Source of the DNA: Niabella agricola
GTDB lineage: Bacteria; Bacteroidota; Bacteroidia; Chitinophagales; Chitinophagaceae
Assembly: GCF_021538615.1 (NCBI RefSeq)
Contig: NZ_JAJHIZ010000002.1
Location: 1,054,001-1,118,000, forward strand
Reading direction: 5' to 3'
Length of the DNA: 64,000 nt
The notes under the pieces are model-generated. The model ran no database searches, was not told the origin of the DNA, and saw nothing but the letters and a program-made list of their open reading frames with translations. A program made the translations under genes and the position numbers. Shown here one piece after another: positions 3,735 through 14,352 of the stretch (within the stretch, counting starts at the first letter, position 1; each line of letters begins with the position of its first letter).

Positions 3735-4384
3735 ATTAAAACTACAGAGAACCTCGCCAAACGGTTTAGAAGATTTTTATTAAATCATTTCACCGGCGAT
3801 ACGCCAATGAATTATTTTGCCCGTTTTAAATGTGGGTAGTTAATGCAGCTACCAAAGACGGCTATTTCCGAGAAGCGCCTACCGAAAAAATAGCAGCACG
3901 TGCTAACCCAAGCAAACATCTAAAAGAGCTATAAGAAATAGAGGAATACTTCGCTTTACTGAAGATCCCATGTTTTAACCAACAGGTACAATTTGGCTTC
4001 CTGGTCACCTGCTATACCGGTCTTAGACGGTGCAATGTTGAAGATCTGCGCTGGCGTCAATTAATTGGAAAAAAGCGTATAGCACGCATCATACAACACA
4101 AAACAGGATTGCCGGTAGTATTATATCTACATCCGGTAGTAATAGCAATATTAAATATACTAAGGCCAACAGGTTACGCACTGGTCTACTTAACTGTTTT
4201 AGATTACCTAAAAAAGAAAAAAATCAACGAATTTGTACTCCTTACAAGGGATAGCGACTATTTGGATCCATTGAATAAACAGAAATTCAATGTGCTTGAA
4301 GATTTGAGTTATGAGGTCAAAGAACTTCCATTACAAATGAACACGGTCAGTATGGCGTTCCCCCTCGCTTTGAAAGCTTCCTGA
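3735..4384 (+). pseudogene. Broken tyrosine recombinase (phage-type integrase)
   Basis: Family: site-specific tyrosine recombinases that move integrative elements. The core-binding part is readable as LAKRFRRFLLNHFTGDTPM and NYFARFK in one frame (from about 3745), then after a frameshift near 3825 as NAATKDGYFREAPTEKIAAR, ANPSKHLKEL. An in-frame TAA sits at 3932-3934. The catalytic domain start follows: EIEEYFALLKIPCFNQQ and FLVTCYTGLRRCNVEDLRW, with the first catalytic arginine context TGLR. The later H-x-x-R and tyrosine motifs are not found; the frame stays open to 4384 with unrelated-looking residues. Frameshift, stop and missing C-terminus make it non-functional. It adjoins the left repeat, which supports an old integration event. 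Confidence 0.85.
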
Positions 4385-4437
4385 ATCATTTACTTTTCAT
4401 GCAATTTTATCGATGAAAAATTTTGTTGTCCTTTTAT

Positions 4438-4472
4438 TTGGATAAACAAACTCATTTATGCAACTTTGTTGC
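4438..4472 (+). promoter_or_regulatory. Promoter overlapped by a GCAAC-TTT-GTTGC palindrome
   Basis: A TTG (4438-4440), a 20-base spacer and CAACTTTG (4461-4468, one mismatch to the Bacteroidota -7 box TAnnTTTG) form a plausible promoter for the metal-uptake locus. The -7 box lies inside a perfect inverted repeat GCAACTTTGTTGC (4460-4472), the expected position for a repressor site. A Fur-family regulator such as Zur is inferred from the downstream genes; the sequence alone does not identify the protein. Confidence 0.5.
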
Positions 4473-4476
4473 GATT

Positions 4477-4836
4477 TTGAAAAATGCAGATTTATATCCC
4501 ATAGCGCTCTACAGAAAGTTATCGGCACTACTTTTTGTACTGATAATGCTTTGCTCATTGTCTGTACAGGCTGTGCACCATCACCACGCTGACATTAAAG
4601 ATAATACCGCTGCCATTCAAAAAGGTTCACTCGTAAAAGTGGTTGCAGAACATTGCAAGGTCTGCGACCAGATCCGGCACAGTTCCTCTCCTGATCTATC
4701 CACTCCTGATACCGAACTAGCTTCCCCCATGCCGGTTACTCCCGTTCACGGAGGACGTTATTATATTGGCTTCTTTAAATTCACCCTGCAGGGCTTTACC
4801 AATAAAGGCCCGCCCACCGCTACTGTAACCGTTTAA
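4477..4836 (+). CDS. Small exported His-rich protein with CxxC motif
   Basis: A protein of about 119 residues whose hydrophobic N-terminal stretch (SALLFVLIMLCSLSVQA) looks like a signal peptide ending just before a VHHHHAD cluster. It then has an EHCKVCDQIRH segment and ends GGRYYIGFFKFTLQGFTN. The HHHH run and the C-x-x-C with flanking His suggest soft-metal binding in the periplasm. TTG at 4477 is chosen because the predicted promoter ends near 4472. The frame is also open from TTG 4423, and ATG 4546 would cut into the signal peptide. First gene of the metal-uptake locus. I do not recognise a named family; a metal-binding role is inference. Confidence 0.6.
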   Translation: MKNADLYPIALYRKLSALLFVLIMLCSLSVQAVHHHHADIKDNTAAIQKGSLVKVVAEHCKVCDQIRHSSSPDLSTPDTELASPMPVTPVHGGRYYIGFFKFTLQGFTNKGPPTATVTV

Positions 4837-5089
4837 CACCTGTTGCTTGACAGGAAGTTGACTTTTTTCCGGTTTTTAATAATATATAAATACAGGTACC
4901 TGTTTCGCTGATGGCATCCGTGCCAATAAAGCTTGTATACTATTCCGAAGTGGTACGCTGTTGTACGATCCTATCCCTGTGTCATAAACGGGCTATACTC
5001 AACCTGGTTCGGGTTATAATCGCTTCCCGAAAGCCATTTTATGTTGATGACAAAGATTCCTTTCCATCTCTCAAACAATATAAAAATCC

Positions 5090-5776
5090 ATGAAAAAATT
5101 ATTCATATTCATTATTTCCGCAGCCATCATTGCCATCAGCGGCTGCAAAAAAAATGATATAACTCCGCAACCGGATAAACCATTTGTAATCACCGATCAC
5201 TTTGTAGCGGGAACAAACACACAGAAAACCGGAAGCAGATACACCAGCGTGTATTTTATCCAGTTCTTAGAAAATAACAAGGCATTGTTTATTGCATCTT
5301 CGGCAAGCAACCTGGAAGGTACTTATACGCTAACAGACTCCACCCTTCTTTTTGAAGTTACCGGCGGCAATGCCCGTACTGCAAAATTCACGCTTGATAA
5401 ACATAAGAAAATCACTTCCGCTTATTACACCGGCAACGGGCCTGTGGAATATGAAGCAACAGCCGAGTTACTCCCCATCACCGCAACCAATGAACTGGCA
5501 GGCAAAACCTTTAAGGGAGAAGAATTTAAAATGGGAGAAGTGAGCAACCGGCAAGGGTTGATCTATAATTTTAACAGGGCCGGAACCACCACCTATGGAT
5601 CCGGAACCGATGCGGCAGCGATGGATAACACTGCTACCAATTATACGCTTATTGGAGGAAGTGGTTTTAAATCTGTAAACGGCAGTACAACCGAGTTAGG
5701 CTTTATCTCCAATAAAAAACTTACCGTTTTCCGGCTCAGCGGACTGTACTACTATGGGAAATATGATCAGCAATAA
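5090..5776 (+). CDS. Lipoprotein preceding the TonB receptor (HmuY-position)
   Basis: 228 residues with a lipoprotein signal (ISGC, acylated Cys19) followed by a beta-rich sequence with two similar-looking halves (LEGTYTLTDSTLLFEV; LAGKTFKGEEF). It starts 254 bases after the previous gene and ends 26 bases before the TonB receptor. In Hmu operons this position is held by HmuY, a heme-binding lipoprotein of similar size, but I see no clear HmuY signature, so shared function is only a positional guess. The 4837-5089 leader contains a TTCGGG/CCCGAA hairpin (5008-5031). Confidence 0.8.
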   Translation: MKKLFIFIISAAIIAISGCKKNDITPQPDKPFVITDHFVAGTNTQKTGSRYTSVYFIQFLENNKALFIASSASNLEGTYTLTDSTLLFEVTGGNARTAKFTLDKHKKITSAYYTGNGPVEYEATAELLPITATNELAGKTFKGEEFKMGEVSNRQGLIYNFNRAGTTTYGSGTDAAAMDNTATNYTLIGGSGFKSVNGSTTELGFISNKKLTVFRLSGLYYYGKYDQQ

Positions 5777-5802
5777 TAAAAAGCGTTACTTTTTTTTACA
5801 AC

Positions 5803-8232
5803 ATGAGCATGATTATAGTGAATAAAAAGCAACTCGTTCTCCTGCTGTTCCTTTTTACCGGCACAAGCTGCATTGCCCAGCACCTTATTACCGGGAAAGT
5901 ATTTACAGACAAAGGCCAACAGCTTCCCTTGCCTGGGGTACAGATTATTGCCGGGCACCTAGGTACTGTTACTGATAGTACAGGTATGTTTTCCATTTCT
6001 GTACAGCAGTTACCGGCTACGCTCCGGGTTTCACATCCCGGGTGCCTTCAAAAAAGTGTGGTTATACAAAACGAACAGGATTGGTCTGCCCTCACCATCG
6101 TGTTGGAGGAAAACTATACGTTGCTCAACCAGGTAGTAGTTACAGCTAACCGCTTCGGACAGCGCCTGCGGGATGTAGCGCAAAAAATGGAGCTCATTTC
6201 TGAAAAAGACATTGCAGCAACAGCTTCGACAGATATGACAGACCTGATAAAACGGAACACAACCGTTAATGTAATCCAATACCCCGGCCTCTTATCCGGC
6301 ATTGGCATCCGGGGTTTCCGGCCACAGTTTTCCGGTTTAAACCAGCGGACATTATTATTAGTCAATGGCCGGCCCGCGGGCGTTACCAATATGGGTTTCC
6401 TGGACCTGAACAATGTAGCACGTATTGAAATACTCAAAGGGCCGGCGTCTGCACTCTATGGATCACAGGCCATGGGAGGTGTGGTCAACATTATCACTCC
6501 GCAGTCATCGGGGCCAGTACACGGTATTGTTAATGCATCTTATGGCAGTTTTAACACCTATATATTTAATGGACGTGCAGGAGGCGGTCTCAGTAAAAAA
6601 CTGGACTTTGATGCCGCTGCTGGTTTTTTTAAACGGGCATCCGATATCCGCCTGGGCAATGGCAACCTGTTTCGTAACCTGCTGCAATCCGATACTGCCC
6701 GACAGATTTACAGCGTTCGCAGGAATGGCTCCCTGGCTGATTCTGCCGGTTATGCGCGGGACACTACAGGCGATGGTAGAAAGCGGGCTTATACCCGTTA
6801 TGGGTATTACACCGGGTCGTTCCGTTTAGGTTACCGTATTAGTGGTCATTGGCGTGCAGACCTTAGTGGCAGCACGTTCATTGCAAAGAATGTAGAATCG
6901 CCGGGAGAGATCTTTAAGGAAGACCGAGATGCCGGATTAAAGGATGTGTATCGCTACAGCGGTGATCTGGCTGTTTCGGGCTCCGTCAAAAAACATTCCT
7001 TGTTATTCAGGGGCTACTGGTCGTCTGAACGCTCAGATGCCTTTGCTGTGCGCACTTCCAAAGGCGCCGTTATTGACACGCCCTATATTGCCCGCCGGTC
7101 CGGATATAAATGGTATGGCTTCCAGGCCAGGGACGCTTTACAACTGAAGCGGCAACAAATTATTTTCGGTTACGATTATAATTATGCTTACGGCAAACTG
7201 ATCATTTTTCCCGCCCCGGCGGATAAGCAGCGGAATGAATATACCACAGCTCCTAATTCATCACTGGTTACGCATGCCTTATATGCCCAGGGACAATTGG
7301 TATTTTTTGACGATAAACTGCACGTCAATCCCGGTCTCCGCCTGGATCATACCACCTTTAACATCCTGGAAACACCCGGCTTTACCAATACCCTGCAAAC
7401 CGGCAGTCAGCGCAATAATTTCCTGAGTCCAAGCCTCAGTGCTCAATACAATATCAGCAATGCCGTATCTGTGCATGGTAGTACCGGCAAGGCTTTTGTA
7501 ACACCGGATGCCAGCAATATTGCCGGTACCACCATCCTGGGCAAAGGCACCGGTAAGATCACCATGACCCAGGGCAATCCTGGTTTGAAGAATGAGAGCA
7601 GCTGGTCGCAGGATATGGGTATGCGTTACGCCCGCAATGGCTGGTTTGCAGATCTGTCTTATTTTACAACCCGTGTACAGGATCGCATTACTTCCAAAGC
7701 TGCGCCACCGGCAACGCCCACGATCATTGAGGGGGATACTGTTACCGCCATTACTAATTATTACAATTCAGATAAAAGCTATATCAAAGGGCTTGAGCTG
7801 CTGCTCGCCTACGACTTTGGTGCGCCTGCCGGTTACCACTACAGCCTGCGCCCCTTCCTGAACAGCACGCACTATTTTCAATATGAAGACACAAAAAAAA
7901 ATGACAAAGGCAATGTACAAATAACGCGTATGAACAGTATTGCCAAAAATAACCATGTATTCGGGATCGATTTCAGTTATAATAAATTCAACACGCGCCT
8001 CAGCGGGCGCTATACGGGTCCAAGGTGGGATGTGAATTATAATGATGCGCTGCGGCCTTTAATTGAATTTCCTCCTTTTCTAACTATGGACTTTTATACG
8101 GCTTACCGGATCACTCCTATGCACCAGGTGGCTTTCAATATAGAAAATATTACGGATGAAAATTATTATGAAAAAAGAGGCTACAACATGCCCGGCAGAA
8201 ATTTCCGTTTAAAATATACACTGAATCTATAA
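5803..8232 (+). CDS. TonB-dependent outer-membrane receptor (HmuR-like position)
   Basis: 809 residues: signal peptide ending near CIAQ, a carboxypeptidase-regulatory-like domain (about 25-105, ITGKVFTDKGQQ), a plug (about 120-225, QVVVTANRFGQRLRD, GIGIRGFRPQF, ARIEILKGPASALYGSQAMGG) and a 22-strand-type barrel ending in an aromatic-rich C-terminus (RNFRLKYTLNL). This is the siderophore/heme/metal receptor type rather than SusC. It is followed after 10 bases by a MotA/TolQ/ExbB protein, and its neighbours are HmuU/V/S-like, so it probably imports a metal or metal-tetrapyrrole complex. ATG 5809 is an alternative start. Confidence 0.92.
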   Translation: MSMIIVNKKQLVLLLFLFTGTSCIAQHLITGKVFTDKGQQLPLPGVQIIAGHLGTVTDSTGMFSISVQQLPATLRVSHPGCLQKSVVIQNEQDWSALTIVLEENYTLLNQVVVTANRFGQRLRDVAQKMELISEKDIAATASTDMTDLIKRNTTVNVIQYPGLLSGIGIRGFRPQFSGLNQRTLLLVNGRPAGVTNMGFLDLNNVARIEILKGPASALYGSQAMGGVVNIITPQSSGPVHGIVNASYGSFNTYIFNGRAGGGLSKKLDFDAAAGFFKRASDIRLGNGNLFRNLLQSDTARQIYSVRRNGSLADSAGYARDTTGDGRKRAYTRYGYYTGSFRLGYRISGHWRADLSGSTFIAKNVESPGEIFKEDRDAGLKDVYRYSGDLAVSGSVKKHSLLFRGYWSSERSDAFAVRTSKGAVIDTPYIARRSGYKWYGFQARDALQLKRQQIIFGYDYNYAYGKLIIFPAPADKQRNEYTTAPNSSLVTHALYAQGQLVFFDDKLHVNPGLRLDHTTFNILETPGFTNTLQTGSQRNNFLSPSLSAQYNISNAVSVHGSTGKAFVTPDASNIAGTTILGKGTGKITMTQGNPGLKNESSWSQDMGMRYARNGWFADLSYFTTRVQDRITSKAAPPATPTIIEGDTVTAITNYYNSDKSYIKGLELLLAYDFGAPAGYHYSLRPFLNSTHYFQYEDTKKNDKGNVQITRMNSIAKNNHVFGIDFSYNKFNTRLSGRYTGPRWDVNYNDALRPLIEFPPFLTMDFYTAYRITPMHQVAFNIENITDENYYEKRGYNMPGRNFRLKYTLNL

Positions 8233-8242
8233 AATAATCCTC

Positions 8243-8797
8243 ATGCAGACCATCGACCGTTTCCTGTATTTACTGTCTACTTTTTTTTACATACCAGTAG
8301 TGGTGGGGCTGATATTCTTGCTGCTGTTCATCCTGTTCCAGTTTGGTCAATTCCTGGCCGTTGCTTATAAAAGGCTGCGGGATAAACATAGTACAACCAC
8401 CGCCTACATTGCACGCATGCAGCAGGGTTCCGCTCCTGATCCTGCGAAAACAGAGATCGCATTAAGGGTCCTGATACATCAGCAACAGCACCGCAACGCT
8501 CGTAAAATACAGGCCGCCCGTTACTGTGTAAAGATCGGCCCAACGGCCGGGCTCATTGGCACCCTAACCCCCATGGCAAAAGCATTGGCCGGCCTCTCCC
8601 AGGGAGACCTGACCAGTCTGGCCGGGCAAATGATCACCGCTTTTTCCACCACGGTGTTGGGACTTATTATTGGCGGCATCGGCTATTCTATTGCTCATGT
8701 ACGCATTAAATGGCAACAGGCAGACCGCTACAGGCTGGAACTGGAAGCCGAACATATTTATCAAAATCATTCTTTAAAACAAAATGAAGTTTCTTAA
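8243..8797 (+). CDS. MotA/TolQ/ExbB proton-channel family protein (HmuU-like)
   Basis: 184 residues with a transmembrane segment at about 15-40 and two more in the conserved channel region (IGPTAGLIGTLTPMAKALAG, then MITAFSTTVLGLIIGGIGY). In ExbB/MotA proteins this region conducts protons and powers an envelope process. In hmu operons the homologue HmuU sits between the receptor and the DUF2149 protein, as here. Its 3' end overlaps the next gene by 14 bases, which implies translational coupling. It probably energises this receptor or the CobN-like protein; that role is inferred. Confidence 0.88.
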   Translation: MQTIDRFLYLLSTFFYIPVVVGLIFLLLFILFQFGQFLAVAYKRLRDKHSTTTAYIARMQQGSAPDPAKTEIALRVLIHQQQHRNARKIQAARYCVKIGPTAGLIGTLTPMAKALAGLSQGDLTSLAGQMITAFSTTVLGLIIGGIGYSIAHVRIKWQQADRYRLELEAEHIYQNHSLKQNEVS

Positions 8798-9125
8798 TTC
8801 CCGCTCCCCCGCTGAAGATGATCTTCACGAAGAAGATCCTATGAATGGCGTAGCACAGTTGTTTGATGTGAGCATCGCGTTTATTGTAGCCGTGATCGCT
8901 GCACTGTTTACGCTTTTATCTTCAAAGGATCTTTTAAAGGCCGACAGCAGTTGGGAACTTGTGCAAAAATCCGCAGCCGGCGAAGCGCAAATTCATAATA
9001 AAGACAAGGCCGCTAACCCAGTCAGCCGTAAGGCCACTAATAAGCAACAAACCGGTAATGGCAAACGCCTGGGCACCGCGTATGAGCTGGACAATGGCGA
9101 AGTAATTTATGTGCCGGATAAATAA
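8784..9125 (+). CDS. DUF2149 family membrane protein (HmuV-like)
   Basis: 113 residues with one transmembrane helix (about 28-46, DVSIAFIVAVIAALFTLLSS) and a C-terminus ending YELDNGEVIYVPDK, the typical DUF2149 ending. DUF2149 proteins pair with MotA/ExbB-like proteins and resemble ExbD/MotB partners in layout: one helix plus a periplasmic tail. The gene overlaps the upstream ExbB-like gene by 14 bases and precedes the CobN-like gene by 8, so the three products probably form one membrane complex. Confidence 0.88.
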   Translation: MKFLNSRSPAEDDLHEEDPMNGVAQLFDVSIAFIVAVIAALFTLLSSKDLLKADSSWELVQKSAAGEAQIHNKDKAANPVSRKATNKQQTGNGKRLGTAYELDNGEVIYVPDK

Positions 9126-9133
9126 AAAAACAA

Positions 9134-12100
9134 ATGAAGTATTTGAAAGTACTGCTACCGGTTCTTATCCTGTTAGGCTTTGGATGCCGGCAACACATGC
9201 ACCAGCCAACGCTGGTATTGATCTCCACACACGCTCTCCTCGCCGGTTCCGGTATGGATGCGGCTATTGAAAAATACCGGGAGTGGTTCATTGTTAAAAT
9301 TTACGACCCCGCCGGTTTCAATGCTGCGGAGGTTTCCGGGGCAGACCTGGTGCTTTGCGAAAGCCTGGGGGCACGTATCAGCCTGCTGCAGCCGCAACTG
9401 GACAGCATCAGGGCACGCACAAAGATCCTGTATATTGATACCCCCGGCGCACAGGGCAACGTGGATACCGTCCACAGCAAAGCACTGAAAAAATACTGGG
9501 ATAATGCCAACACAGAAAACTTTGAAGGCCTGTTCAGTTATATCGGCAGCCGCATCTTTGGTCTTCCTGTTCCGTTAAAACAATGTATCGAATACCCCCC
9601 CTATGGTTTTTACCATACCGGCCAGGATAGCTTATTCAGGGATCTTTCTGCTTACCTGGACTGGTACGCCCACAATGCGGGGCACCGCTATAACCCTGAT
9701 TCCATCACCATTGGGCTCGTATATTATCAAAGCGCTTTTGTAAAGAAAGACCTGAAAGTAATCGATGCACTGATCCGCAATATTGAAAGCAAGGGGCATA
9801 ATGTGCTGCCACTCCTGGCCAAAGGTCAATTTAAGATCGATAGCTTTTTCATGCAGCACAATCATCCGGTAGCAGATGCATTGATCTATGGCGGAATGTT
9901 TCTTGATTTTGCCCATCCGGAACAGGGACGGCTCAGTGCGCAACAACTGGATCTGCCGTTGCTGGTAGGCGCGGTAAGCAGCACTGAAACAATACAGGAC
10001 TGGGAGCATGGCCAGGGTGGGTTTTTGCCCCGCATGACCGACCGGCTTTTCTTTACAGAACGCGATGGCGCCTTTGAGCCCCTGCTGATTGGCGCACAGG
10101 CAAAAGATCCGAAAGGCAATACCTGGACCGCGCCCATCCCTTACCAGGTAGACTGGCGGGTAGATCGTGCGCTGAGCTGGGCACGGCTGCGCCGTAAAGC
10201 AAATCATGATAAAAAAATTGTTATCACGTATTACAGCGAAGGCGGCGGCAAGGCCAATGTAGGCGGTGATATTGATGCCTACCTTAACGTGCCTGCCAGC
10301 ATTGTGAACCTGCTGAAAGCGCTCCGGGCAAAAGGCTACAGCACAGGAACAGCGCCCGTTCCATCAACTGCTGAACTATCAAAGCAAATGGCCTTGCATG
10401 CCTCCAATGTGGGCAGCTGGGCCGGAGAAGAGCTAATTCAGCGAAGCAGTAACGTACATCAAACCACGATCCGGATACCGGTAAGCCGCTACCTGCAATG
10501 GTTCCGCCAGTATCCTAAAAAGTTGCAGGACGCCGTAACGGATACCTGGGGACCGCCACCCGGTAATATAATGACCATAACAGCCGCCGGCGGTGAAAAG
10601 GAGTTTGTTATACCCGTGCTTCAATATGGTAACATCCTCCTGGCGCCGCATCCCAACTGGGGCCTGCAGGAAAATCAAAAAGTGATCTATGGCAGTTCAG
10701 CCATTCCGCCGCATCATTCCTATATTGCTTTTTATGAATGGATGAAACAGCAATACCGTGCAGATGCCCTGTTGACCCTGTTTACCCAGCTTTCGCTGAT
10801 GCCCGGTAAGCAGGAAGGGCCGGCAGCAGATGATTTTACAGGACGTCTTATTGGTAACCTGCCGCATATTACTACAGTGCCACTGATGGCCGGCAGCGGT
10901 GTAAAAAACAAACGCCGGGCCAGCGCTTTAACCATCGGGTATTTTAATGAGCTGACCGATGCGGTGCTAAGCGATAGCCTGCAACAGCTAAAAAGAATGA
11001 TTGATGATCGTAAAACGGCTACAAACCCGGTGATCAGGGAGCGGCAGACGCAAAAGATCATTGCCATGGCCCGGCAACAGCTGCCGGGTAAAAAAAGGGA
11101 GGCTAACGATCCGGAAGCCTACGTCAGCGCTATTGAGCATTATATACGGGGTATAATTGCCACAAAGATCCCCGATGGCAGTCATACTTTAGGTGAAGTG
11201 CCCCGTGGGGCAAAGTTACAGCGGCTGCTTAATGCGTTAACGGGCGCCGCTCCCCGCAATCAAAAGGATTCCGCCTACCGGAAATTCCTTCAAACAAAAA
11301 ACGAATACCTCCGTCAGCTGGGCCGCGCCGGCGACGAGGTTAGCAATATCTTACATGCACTAAACGGTGGCTATGTGCCGCCCGGTCCTTCTGACGATAT
11401 TTTACGCAACCCGGAATCGTTGCCTTCCGGCAGAAATCCTTACGGTGTTAATGATAAAGCGATCCCTTCCAAAGAAGCATGGGAAACCGGCAAACGCATG
11501 GCAGATCAGCTGCTGATCGATTTTGAGCAAAAACACGGCAAAGGACAATACCCCAAAAAAGTCGCGTTTGTATTATGGTCTACAGAAATTACCAACTCTC
11601 AGGGCGTGCAGGAAGCAGAGCTGTTGTACCTGATGGGAGTACAGCCGGTGTGGAACAGCAAAGGCCAGGTAATGGGTGCTGCGTTGATCCCCGCTGCGGA
11701 TCTGCGGCGTCCCCGTATTGATGTACTTATTACCACTTCCGGTACTTACCGGGATCATTTTGCTGATAAGATCGCATTGCTTGACACCGCCGTTCGTATA
11801 GCCGCTGCTGCTCCGGATAGTAACAATTGGATTCGCATTCATTCGCAAACTTATCAACACACGTTGAAGCTTAAAACGCCCGGAACCGCGCGCATTTTTT
11901 CTACGGCACTGGGCGCTTACTCCACCAACCTGGAGTTTGCCGTGGAGAAGGCGGATAGCTGGAATAACGACACGACACTTTCTGATCTGTACTTAAAGCG
12001 GATGGGCAACAGCTATGGGAACAGCGATACGGCACAACAGTCAGCCTTATTTACGCTCAATATAAAAGATGTGGATGCCGCAGCTTTCAGCCGCAGCTCC

Positions 12101-12907
12101 CATGTACTGGGGATCATGGACCACCCGATGGTAGCGGCGTACTATGGGGCCATCAGCTTGGCCGTGCAAAATACCACCGGGCGGATTCCCGATCTGTACA
12201 TCAACGATCTTGCTAACAAAAACGAAGCACAGCTACAATCCTTGCAGGATGCCTATCATAAGGAAATGGACACCCGCTACCTAAACCCGGCCTGGATCAA
12301 AAGTATGCAGGCACAGGGATATGATGGCGCGCGGTACATGGAGGCTTTTACAGAGAACCTGGAACTATGGAATATCACCAAAAAAGACATGGTTACCGAT
12401 GCAGACTGGAACCAGGTATATGCCACCTACGTGGATGACCGCCTGCATCTTCAGTTGGATGTTTTTTTTGAGCAACATAATCCCTATGCAAAACAGGGGT
12501 TGCTCTCCCACTTGCTGGAAGCGGCAGAAAAAGGCTACTGGCATGCATCCGAACAACAGTTACAAATACTGGCCACCCGCCTTGCCACAACAGTAGCCCG
12601 GCATGGGGCGGCTTGTAACACCACGGTTTGCAATACCACGCAAACCCAAAACCAGGTGAAACGGGTACTCGAGAAAGTGCCCGGCGGTATGGTACTGGCA
12701 AAAAAATATACAACCGCTATTAACCGGTTAAACCTGGGTGCAACAAATGGCAAAGACATTTCAACCCCGGTAACGGGCTACCAGATCATGCAATCTAATA
12801 AAAAACAGCAGGCTGCAAAAGATTCCATAATCTATTGGCTAATTGCAGGACTACTGATGTTAATAATAGTGGGGTTTATGGCTGAAATCAAAAAACAGAA
12901 CGGTTGA
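9134..12907 (+). CDS. CobN/HmuS-family chelatase-like protein, lipoprotein form
   Basis: 1257 residues of the CobN/magnesium-chelatase H-subunit family; motifs include YYSEGGGKANVGGDIDAYL, TDTWGPPPG, GNILLAPHPNWGLQ, LWSTEITNSQGVQEAELLYL and DHPMVAAYYGAISLAV. CobN proper inserts cobalt into cobyrinate, but the cobS/cobT partners are absent here. In Bacteroidota the homologue HmuS, beside ExbB-like and DUF2149 proteins, is linked to removing metal from heme. The N-terminus is a lipoprotein signal (LGFGC, Cys18) and the C-terminus a transmembrane helix (about 1231-1250) with a basic tail, so it should sit in the periplasm, tethered to the inner membrane. A metal-releasing role on a tetrapyrrole is the best inference; which metal is open. 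Confidence 0.9.
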   Translation: MKYLKVLLPVLILLGFGCRQHMHQPTLVLISTHALLAGSGMDAAIEKYREWFIVKIYDPAGFNAAEVSGADLVLCESLGARISLLQPQLDSIRARTKILYIDTPGAQGNVDTVHSKALKKYWDNANTENFEGLFSYIGSRIFGLPVPLKQCIEYPPYGFYHTGQDSLFRDLSAYLDWYAHNAGHRYNPDSITIGLVYYQSAFVKKDLKVIDALIRNIESKGHNVLPLLAKGQFKIDSFFMQHNHPVADALIYGGMFLDFAHPEQGRLSAQQLDLPLLVGAVSSTETIQDWEHGQGGFLPRMTDRLFFTERDGAFEPLLIGAQAKDPKGNTWTAPIPYQVDWRVDRALSWARLRRKANHDKKIVITYYSEGGGKANVGGDIDAYLNVPASIVNLLKALRAKGYSTGTAPVPSTAELSKQMALHASNVGSWAGEELIQRSSNVHQTTIRIPVSRYLQWFRQYPKKLQDAVTDTWGPPPGNIMTITAAGGEKEFVIPVLQYGNILLAPHPNWGLQENQKVIYGSSAIPPHHSYIAFYEWMKQQYRADALLTLFTQLSLMPGKQEGPAADDFTGRLIGNLPHITTVPLMAGSGVKNKRRASALTIGYFNELTDAVLSDSLQQLKRMIDDRKTATNPVIRERQTQKIIAMARQQLPGKKREANDPEAYVSAIEHYIRGIIATKIPDGSHTLGEVPRGAKLQRLLNALTGAAPRNQKDSAYRKFLQTKNEYLRQLGRAGDEVSNILHALNGGYVPPGPSDDILRNPESLPSGRNPYGVNDKAIPSKEAWETGKRMADQLLIDFEQKHGKGQYPKKVAFVLWSTEITNSQGVQEAELLYLMGVQPVWNSKGQVMGAALIPAADLRRPRIDVLITTSGTYRDHFADKIALLDTAVRIAAAAPDSNNWIRIHSQTYQHTLKLKTPGTARIFSTALGAYSTNLEFAVEKADSWNNDTTLSDLYLKRMGNSYGNSDTAQQSALFTLNIKDVDAAAFSRSSHVLGIMDHPMVAAYYGAISLAVQNTTGRIPDLYINDLANKNEAQLQSLQDAYHKEMDTRYLNPAWIKSMQAQGYDGARYMEAFTENLELWNITKKDMVTDADWNQVYATYVDDRLHLQLDVFFEQHNPYAKQGLLSHLLEAAEKGYWHASEQQLQILATRLATTVARHGAACNTTVCNTTQTQNQVKRVLEKVPGGMVLAKKYTTAINRLNLGATNGKDISTPVTGYQIMQSNKKQQAAKDSIIYWLIAGLLMLIIVGFMAEIKKQNG

Positions 12908-12980
12908 TCTGGCAAACTGTATTGCTTAATAAGAGCAGTAACAGAAGATCAGGAGCGATTATAAAATAAATTAAACGACA

Positions 12981-13151
12981 ATGACCAGGAAGCTAATTAA
13001 GATCATTCTTATTGCTTATTGCAGCACTATAAGCAGCTGCGGTTGTCATCATAAAGGCAATGGCACCTGTACCGCGCATCAAAGCATTGCACAAAAATCA
13101 AAAACAGTAATTAAACGGATCATACAAAATGATAAACAATATGGAAAGTAA
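12981..13151 (+). CDS. Small Cys/His-rich lipoprotein (56 aa)
   Basis: A frame too short for most gene finders: ATG 12981 to TAA 13151. It has a lysine-rich start, a hydrophobic stretch and a lipobox-like ISSC (Cys20), followed at once by [13 protein letters not shown], i.e. three Cys and three His within fifteen residues, and then a Lys/Gln-rich tail. The mature N-terminus looks like a compact soft-metal site. Its last 23 bases overlap the start of the ZigA-type GTPase, the usual sign of translational coupling. No family recognised. Placement between a CobN-like gene and a zinc-chaperone gene supports a metal role. The main doubt is whether it is translated. Confidence 0.6.
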
Positions 13152-14352
13152 AAACCACCGACTCCCCGTAACAGTATTGAGCGGTTTCCTGGGCGCAGGC
13201 AAAACTACCCTCCTCAATCATGTCCTGCACAATAAACAGGGTTTAAAAGTGGCCGTCATTGTCAACGACATGAGCGAAGTGAGTATTGATGCCCGGCTGG
13301 TAGAAGATACCGGCGCCCTGTCCCGGACCGAAGAAAAGTTAGTGGAAATGAGCAATGGCTGTATTTGTTGCTCGCTGCGGGAAGATTTAATGAAGGAGGT
13401 GGAAAAACTGGCTAAGGAAAAACGTTTTGATTACCTGCTTATCGAAAGCACCGGCATCAGCGAGCCCATACCCGTGGCGCAAACCTTTTCATACACCGAC
13501 GAAGAAAATGGTGTGGACCTCTCCCGGTTCAGCTATATCGATACAATGGTTACGGTAGTGGATTGCTTTAATTTTTTTAAAGATTTCGGCACCGATGAGT
13601 TACTGAAAGACCGGGAGCTGACCGATATGGAAGGCGATCAGCGTACCATTGTAAACCTGCTGACCGACCAGATCGAATTTGCCAATGTGATCATCCTGAA
13701 CAAAACCGACCTGGTAGAAGAGCACACGGCTGGCCTGCTGCAGGCGGCTATTCACAAGCTAAACCCGGGTGCAAAGATCCTGCGCTCCAGTTTCGGCAAA
13801 GTGCCCCCCGCGGAAATACTGAATACGGGTTTGTTTGATTTTGACGAGGCACAAACCTCTGCCGGCTGGCAAAAAGAGCTGGAGGCCGGAAATCATACAC
13901 CCGAAACGGAAGAATTCGGGATCAGTTCTTTCGTGTTCCGGAACCCGCTCCCCTTTCATCCGGAGCGGCTCTGGAACTATTTAAACACACAATACCCCCA
14001 GGGCGTTATCCGCGCCAAGGGGCTGTTCTGGCTGGCCTCCCGCCCCAATGATGCCTTAAATTTTTCACAGGCCGGTGGCTCCTCCCGTATAGAAAAAGCC
14101 GGTAAATGGTGGTGCAGTATGCCCTATAATGAGCGCATGCGCTATCCTTCTTATGCATATAACAGGGACGCCATAGAAGGCCGTTGGAGCAAAAAATGGG
14201 GTGACCGTCTGAACGAGCTCGTGTTCATTGGCCAGGACATGGATCGGGCACTGCTGGTAAAAGAGCTGGAACAATGTTTATTGCAGGAGGCAGAACAGTA
14301 TTTGTTTGACACAAAATCGGGATTTAAGGATCCGTTCCCAAAAGAAATTTGA
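13129..14352 (+). CDS. zigA: COG0523 zinc-chaperone GTPase, ZigA/YciC type
   Basis: 407 residues of the G3E family. Walker A is GFLGAGKTT (about residues 19-27); the signature cluster CICC (residues 78-81) binds zinc in this family; ESTGISEP and NKTDLV are the later GTPase motifs. [15 protein letters not shown] plus [18 protein letters not shown] is the pattern of the ZigA/YciC/ZagA branch, cytosolic GTPases that deliver zinc during starvation and are commonly Zur-repressed. The C-terminal CobW_C domain includes GLFWLASRP and [15 protein letters not shown] 13141 is an equally good start. It overlaps the small Cys/His lipoprotein gene and lies 221 bases after the CobN-like gene, suggesting one regulon. 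Family call is strong; regulation is inferred. Confidence 0.9.

Follow-up and report, generated by a model that had tools for sequence, protein, structure and literature searches.

We analysed a row of genes at 4.4-14.4 kb of a 64-kb stretch (the window) of the 6.26-Mb genome of Niabella agricola, which belongs to the same family as Filimonas. Every gene of interest lies on the plus strand in one co-directional row, in which a TonB-dependent receptor, an ExbB-type protein, a DUF2149 protein and a large protein of the CobN superfamily are accompanied by small His/Cys proteins and a ZigA-type GTPase. Judged from the sequence, the row can be read as a Zur-controlled zinc-acquisition operon that uses a repurposed CobN protein, a reading to which we assign a probability of about 0.6. 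Zinc, and not heme iron, is probably what the operon collects, because it combines a zinc-type switch with a chelatase-like protein that lacks the key catalytic histidine. The genes named in a preliminary description of this DNA (receptor, ExbB, DUF2149, CobN, His/Cys exported protein, Cys/His lipoprotein and ZigA-type GTPase) were confirmed by Pfam and NCBIfam matches and open reading frames (ORFs). The features of the row are (aa, amino acids):

4458..4474, no strand assigned: operator-like palindrome ATGCAACTTTGTTGCGA, putative Zur site with two mismatches to the consensus TTGCAACnnnGTTGCAA
4477..4836, plus strand: small exported His/Cys protein with HHHH, CKVC and a GPP tail
5090..5776, plus strand: lipoprotein of 228 aa, without Pfam match and of no known family
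5803..8232, plus strand: TonB-dependent receptor, 809 aa (PF00593, PF07715)
8243..8797, plus strand: MotA/TolQ/ExbB-type proton channel subunit (PF01618)
8784..9125, plus strand: DUF2149 protein, presumed ExbD-like partner (PF09919)
9134..12907, plus strand: CobN-superfamily protein, 1257 aa (PF02514)
10766..10813, plus strand: site of the former catalytic motif, region ADALLTLFTQLSLMPGKQ; HxGxHG in the other members of the superfamily
12981..13151, plus strand: Cys/His lipoprotein-like protein of 56 aa with CGCHH, whose gene runs into the start of that for the GTPase
13129..14352, plus strand: COG0523 GTPase of the ZigA type (PF02492, PF07683, NF038288)

Operator palindrome, Fur-family regulator and ZigA

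A TTGCAACnnnGTTGCAA-type site was located at most 1 kb upstream in 20 of the 23 readable ZigA loci, where 0.18 would be expected; of the 26 loci given, L132, L139 and L141 were dropped because their GTPase motif was not located. When the window was scored with a matrix built on 30 sites found upstream of ZigA in other genomes, the site at 4458 came out on top with 21.7 bits, the next one reaching 13.3 bits, and related palindromes were found upstream of the operon in all three relatives (L050, L051 and L052). In the Niabella genome the consensus was matched with up to two mismatches at 35 sites, many of them inside ORFs, compared with 14 sites for the reversed control. Exact palindromes numbered 54 in 48 of the 195 genomes of the family, as against 2 control sites. 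In the 30 of these 54 exact-site loci that were examined, relatives of the Niabella Fur-family and MerC proteins were each present in 26 and those of its SCO1-like protein in 25, and 27 loci contained at least one of the three. Most exact-match loci (L160-L189) show a merC-like gene divergent from a pair of SCO1-like and Fur-family genes, with the palindrome between them; SCO1-like is the label that we presume for the gene beside the Fur-family gene. This layout is suggestive of a zinc regulator under its own control, with MerC as a candidate permease for zinc. The corresponding site of Niabella (L104:5355-5435) is weak, with three mismatches and 15.0 bits. A tandem pair of sites in the same genome precedes a receptor with ZnuD as its best solved relative. 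The operator is thus common to zinc-linked genes and to the neighbourhood of the regulator itself, as in a Zur regulon. An iron-Fur operator was rejected, since feoB lacked an upstream site in each of the 12 genomes inspected. In a narrow search of the open-licence literature, no title or abstract found described the palindrome.

A single Fur-family protein was found in the Niabella genome. Its best solved relative was FurB, a zinc uptake regulator, and it keeps the Cys and the His aligned to C79/H87 of the Zur regulatory site. The structure 3mwm we take to be Zur of S. coelicolor.

The GTPase at 13129-14352 had ZigA (NF038288) as its top NCBIfam model, with 544.1 bits (cut-off 600) and the whole profile covered, whereas CobW scored 149.3 bits. 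A COG0523 gene beside cobN is usual in cobalamin clusters according to the relevant part of PMC2770081; such a CobW/B12 juxtaposition was rejected here, because no cob genes are present and the GTPase scores far better as ZigA than as CobW. The preliminary description would have been refuted if ZigA were no commoner beside this CobN subtype than by chance. The link between the two held in this co-occurrence test, although numbers were small: ZigA was encoded in four of four genomes with this CobN type (69-100% identity) as compared with 24 of the 195 family genomes. In the latter set, matches at an E-value of 0.001 occurred in 48 genomes, 23 of them at an identity of at least 62%, to which one contig-end fragment was added. 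The chance of both sampled clade members falling among those 24 was about 0.015, a value that covers two of the four clade genomes. Five genomes with HmuS were also inspected; G029 has a ZigA of 64% identity and G534 a relative of 42%, and none was found in G764, G746 and G880. In L051, ZigA is found beside the operon and is followed by a Fur-family gene.

For the small exported protein the ORF spans 4423-4836, and the in-frame TTG at 4477 was chosen as the likelier start; neither Pfam nor NCBIfam gave a match. Short ORFs that end in a GPP tail and contain two or more Cys were detected in ZigA loci (8 ORFs in 6 of 26), in 2 of the 30 exact-site loci, in the locus studied here and in L042 and L079. 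None was found in 12 feoB loci, and two matches in zip and other loci appear unrelated. The small protein adjoining ZigA in L136 carries VCKLCDQI and FTNKGPP, the Niabella protein CKVCDQI and FTNKGPP. The 56-aa Cys/His lipoprotein had no family match, and the 228-aa lipoprotein had no counterpart in the loci of the three relatives; the lipoprotein signals in the operon are our own presumed assignments. Zinc-type control as proposed in the preliminary description was thereby supported in silico, by the palindrome shared with ZigA genes, the ZigA gene at the end of the row, the ZigA and Fur-family genes of L051 and the CxxC/GPP small proteins, while its Hmu half was not.

Two further observations concern the surroundings of such GTPase genes. 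In L121, L123, L126, L129 and L130, ZigA is preceded by the coding sequence of a conserved protein of some 67 aa (MIPQ.FEQW ... HL.NII.W), which in L126 forms the last part of a longer frame. In Prevotella nigrescens a COG0523-type GTPase with 34% identity to the Niabella ZigA is located about 1.9 kb downstream of hmu (L155:14850-16085).

The CobN-like protein, its receptor and the gene order

The CobN-like protein (9134-12907) was the only CobN found in the genome, and its closest solved relative was HmuS (9d26). According to PMC12583661, HmuS removes iron from heme, the exchange H538A abolishes its activity, and the His of HFG(T/A)HG is described as conserved throughout the superfamily. In all four members of the clade of the Niabella protein this motif is replaced by LFTQ--LSLMPGKQ, with a two-residue deletion and loss of both His. 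When proteins of at least 850 aa from the collected loci were counted after removal of contained pieces (61 with and 8 without the motif before removal), HxGxHG was present in 49 of 53 distinct CobN-superfamily proteins, and the other four were the clade members. Since the clade lacks the motif and all 49 of the remaining superfamily proteins have it, heme de-chelation by this clade is unlikely. The view that the protein is a metal-releasing enzyme acting on a tetrapyrrole, put forward in the preliminary description, is accordingly not supported, as the motif with the His essential in HmuS is absent from all four proteins. The loss is identical in the four, and so represents an old, conserved change.

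Further hallmarks of HmuS are altered or missing. The motif LSLDHxxEFMGG with H1209 reads GIMDHPMVAAYYGA here, and in an ungapped alignment a Met is positioned opposite H1209, with a His two residues before it. The 1257-aa protein is devoid of the Met-rich insertion, and the heme ligands Met79/His254 are not retained, with Leu at one position and no HGR in the protein. All NCBIfam equivalogs for CobN scored below cut-off, and no cob genes lie beside the gene. In a maximum likelihood tree the clade of four was distinct, with a support of 100, a value also obtained for HmuS and for the classical chelatases; deeper branching was weak (support 60). For the tree, L152 was left out as a duplicate of the protein of L012; in the alignment this duplicate does count among the 22 rows from outside the clade. 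Compared with these 22 rows, H33, H506, H997 and H1042 are invariant in the clade and absent elsewhere, H422 and H875 are invariant and each present in one other row, and the position of H506 is Gln in 21 of the 22. The Epilithonimonas CobN was entered as C-terminal frame only, and H33 therefore rests on three sequences. An N-terminal Cys is conserved in Niabella, L050 and L051, by which the protein may be lipoprotein-like, and a hydrophobic segment is found at the C-terminus. An AlphaFold model of residues 25-1200 based on 5 sequences was poor (mean predicted local distance difference test score 56.1, predicted template modelling score 0.30).

Over 730 aa the receptor shared 35% identity with its counterpart in a module of a Runella hyp cluster, and receptors from the hmu loci L042, L048, L149, L150, L153 and L155 matched it at only 25-30% over 140-384 aa. 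The Niabella receptor has AFVTP where the hmu-locus receptors have GFRAP; the FRAP box we take to be a mark of heme receptors. The best NCBIfam models of the receptor were heme receptor subfamilies, below their cut-offs.

The four central genes follow the order receptor, ExbB-like, DUF2149 and CobN last. This order recurs in a Filimonas metagenome-assembled genome (MAG), in the Chitinophagales bin_354 MAG and in Epilithonimonas bovis, with CobN identities of 66%, 47% and 45-50%, respectively, which argues that the four genes do not stand together merely by chance. The order had been taken to match the heme-uptake operons of the phylum. This was wrong, since hmu operons have CobN before ExbB and DUF2149 and contain HmuY in addition. 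In published hmu operons, as far as they are covered in the sections of PMC10434189 used here, CobN/HmuS is followed by a hypothetical protein, by ExbB and by DUF2149, and the operons include HmuY. The same succession from CobN/HmuS to DUF2149 was observed in four hmu operons of our collection (L042, L048, L153 and L155), with HmuY ahead of the receptor in L048 and L155 and behind it in L042 and L153. The Niabella operon yielded no HmuY match and no gene at the position of HmuT, presumably the 240-aa protein of L042.

The clade is rare: Niabella and G096 were its only carriers among the 195 family genomes, and Niabella was the sole member in a class-level scan of 395 genomes. It is probably under-sampled, because a single contig scan with two peptide patterns gave 4 loci, 3 of them in the clade. 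Just upstream of the operon, at 3840-4384 of the window, there are tyrosine recombinase-like remnants, judged by eye; a Pfam search with the ORF at 4109-4384 gave nothing. Such remnants together with the rarity of the locus would fit a horizontal gain. In Epilithonimonas bovis (L052:5840-12815) the frames of the receptor and of the CobN-like protein are each fragmented, either by decay or by an assembly error.

Modules on plasmids of Runella and Trichlorobacter also have the receptor first and CobN last, with an extra permease-like gene, and lie in a hydrogenase and a benzimidazole context, respectively. The Runella module (L046:2554-10588) consists of receptor, NicO/urease-accessory-like gene, ExbB, DUF2149 and CobN, and its position inside a hyp cluster, which serves nickel hydrogenase maturation, suggests a nickel-uptake CobN module. 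On a megaplasmid of Cupriavidus campinensis (L049:6737-15801), a COG0523 gene lies between two CobN-superfamily genes. A gamma-proteobacterial-type Zur box, sought by pattern in the Pseudoalteromonas module L047, was not found.

Zinc uptake weighed against other functions

Several results count against a zinc operon under Zur. The Niabella site carries its two mismatches to the consensus, and the Niabella ZigA is one of the three readable ZigA loci without an upstream site, which would be expected of a gene transcribed by read-through from the operon's first promoter region. ZigA adjoins the operon in only two of the four clade genomes (Niabella and L051). Among the solved relatives of the regulator PerR is close behind Zur, and NCBIfam gave 41.1 bits for Fur, 38.6 for PerR and 31.3 for Zur, all far below cut-off. 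Elsewhere in the genome a site precedes a GPP-tail small protein followed by a receptor nearer to Cir than to ZnuD, and none of five zip genes had the box, which is mildly unfavourable. The box was also found upstream of two of the eight HmuS-type operons scanned (L042, L048, L148-L151, L153 and L155): in L042, a genome of the same family, at 5459-5475 with 21.8 bits, and in Aureibacter L153 with 23.8 and 20.4 bits (sites L153:3053-3109). Either the regulator acts on heme operons too in certain lineages, or its specificity is not for zinc alone. Zinc-type control of the heme operons in L042 and L153, both with intact HmuS, is possible. In L153 the box occurs before a further receptor row as well (L153:13405-13421).

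These boxes are one argument for the idea that the row is a divergent heme or tetrapyrrole operon, in which a rebuilt active site removes iron, or zinc from Zn-porphyrin, and a Fur-family box also controls heme operons. We regard this as unlikely. Beside the box before the true hmu operons of L042 and L153, the former also with a GPP-tail small protein, the idea can draw on HmuS as the closest solved relative and on the heme receptor models topping the list for the receptor. The clade, however, has lost HxGxHG with the H538 essential in HmuS; HmuY, HmuT, the Met-rich insertion and the Met79/His254 ligands are not there, and the receptor reads AFVTP, not GFRAP. The box is, moreover, not confined to heme genes, as G029 has a separate ZigA locus that also carries it. 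In P. gingivalis, P. intermedia and B. theta, the hmu genes themselves are raised when iron is limiting, as reported in the consulted sections of PMC10434189.

Somewhat less probable still is that the operon imports a different divalent metal (nickel or cobalt), CobN modules of this kind serving several metals. Of the loci compared, the nearest receptor outside the clade (the 35% match over 730 aa) is that of the Runella hyp cluster, whose module also has the NicO-like gene (below the Pfam cut-off), and the Trichlorobacter module adjoins BzaF; for PA1922-PA1925 of P. aeruginosa, cobalt has been raised by the authors of PMC8531726 and PMC11761036, in passages of these papers. The operator in common with ZigA genes and the ZigA gene in the same row speak against nickel or cobalt, and no B12 or hydrogenase gene is found among the operon genes, hydrogenase and urease genes not having been searched genome-wide. 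That the locus is recently acquired or decaying, with an inactive CobN-like protein and no present function, appears improbable. Its presence in just two of 195 family genomes and the broken receptor and CobN frames of Epilithonimonas bovis would agree with this reading, but full-length open frames are kept in Niabella, L050 and L051 at 47-66% identity, the motif loss is the same in all four clade members, and the box is kept in all four.

Proposed zinc route and known systems

If the operon does acquire zinc, the Fur-family regulator would leave the box upon zinc starvation, and the receptor would bring zinc into the periplasm, probably as a chelate. There the membrane-anchored CobN-like protein would bind the incoming zinc, and the proton-motive force, acting via ExbB and DUF2149, would drive its release in place of the His-dependent demetallation of HmuS. 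The small His/Cys proteins might hold the metal, a permease encoded outside the operon would import it, and ZigA would deliver it in the cytoplasm. In its full form our proposal, more tentative than the assignment to zinc, is that this clade of the CobN/HmuS superfamily lost the metal-transfer His and became a periplasmic zinc-release machine driven by proton-motive force, with its own TonB receptor, that hands metal towards ZigA; H506, H997 and H1042 are candidate zinc ligands.

The preliminary description held that a CobN-family enzyme serving zinc acquisition would be a new use of the machinery. This is not entirely new, as a CobN-like gene in a Zur-regulated TonB operon is already published. 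In the part of PMC4542158 concerned, PA1922-PA1925 of P. aeruginosa comprise a Zur-regulated TonB receptor, a CobN-like, an ExbD-like and a hypothetical protein, and showed 44.7- to 147-fold increases when znuA was mutated. In composition and predicted control the two systems are alike, each with a TonB receptor, a CobN-like protein and a proton-channel-type partner under a Zur or Zur-type site, as far as that source describes them. The Niabella row differs in having ExbB and DUF2149 ahead of CobN, in holding ZigA and small His/Cys proteins and in its operator, which is another palindrome. With hmuYRSTUV and HmuS of Bacteroidota it shares the TonB receptor, the CobN-superfamily protein, ExbB and DUF2149, but HmuY, HmuT, the catalytic His motif, the Met-rich insertion and the heme ligands are lacking, the gene order is other than Y-R-S-T-U-V and the CobN protein falls in a separate clade. 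The GTPase resembles ZigA/YciC-type COG0523 metallochaperones in its full-length NF038288 match, and most members of that family have the box upstream; in contrast to them it scores below the 600 cut-off and is placed at the end of a CobN operon. The Runella (hyp) and Trichlorobacter (BzaF) modules likewise start with the receptor, carry ExbB and DUF2149 in between and end with CobN, but have the additional permease-like gene and keep HxGxHG, which is absent here. What is new here is the Bacteroidota form, the ZigA linkage, the operator and the finding that the catalytic motif has been lost throughout the clade.

The operon separates the CobN-ExbB-DUF2149 machine from the tetrapyrrole chemistry with which it is seen together in hmu. 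The conserved natural loss of the catalytic His provides a handle on non-demetallation roles of CobN-like proteins, and also on the so far unexplained CobN gene that Zur regulates in P. aeruginosa. With the palindrome as a candidate operator of zinc-type genes in the Chitinophagaceae, further members of the regulon can be predicted. If true, the zinc-release machine would be a non-tetrapyrrole use of the CobN/HmuS fold.

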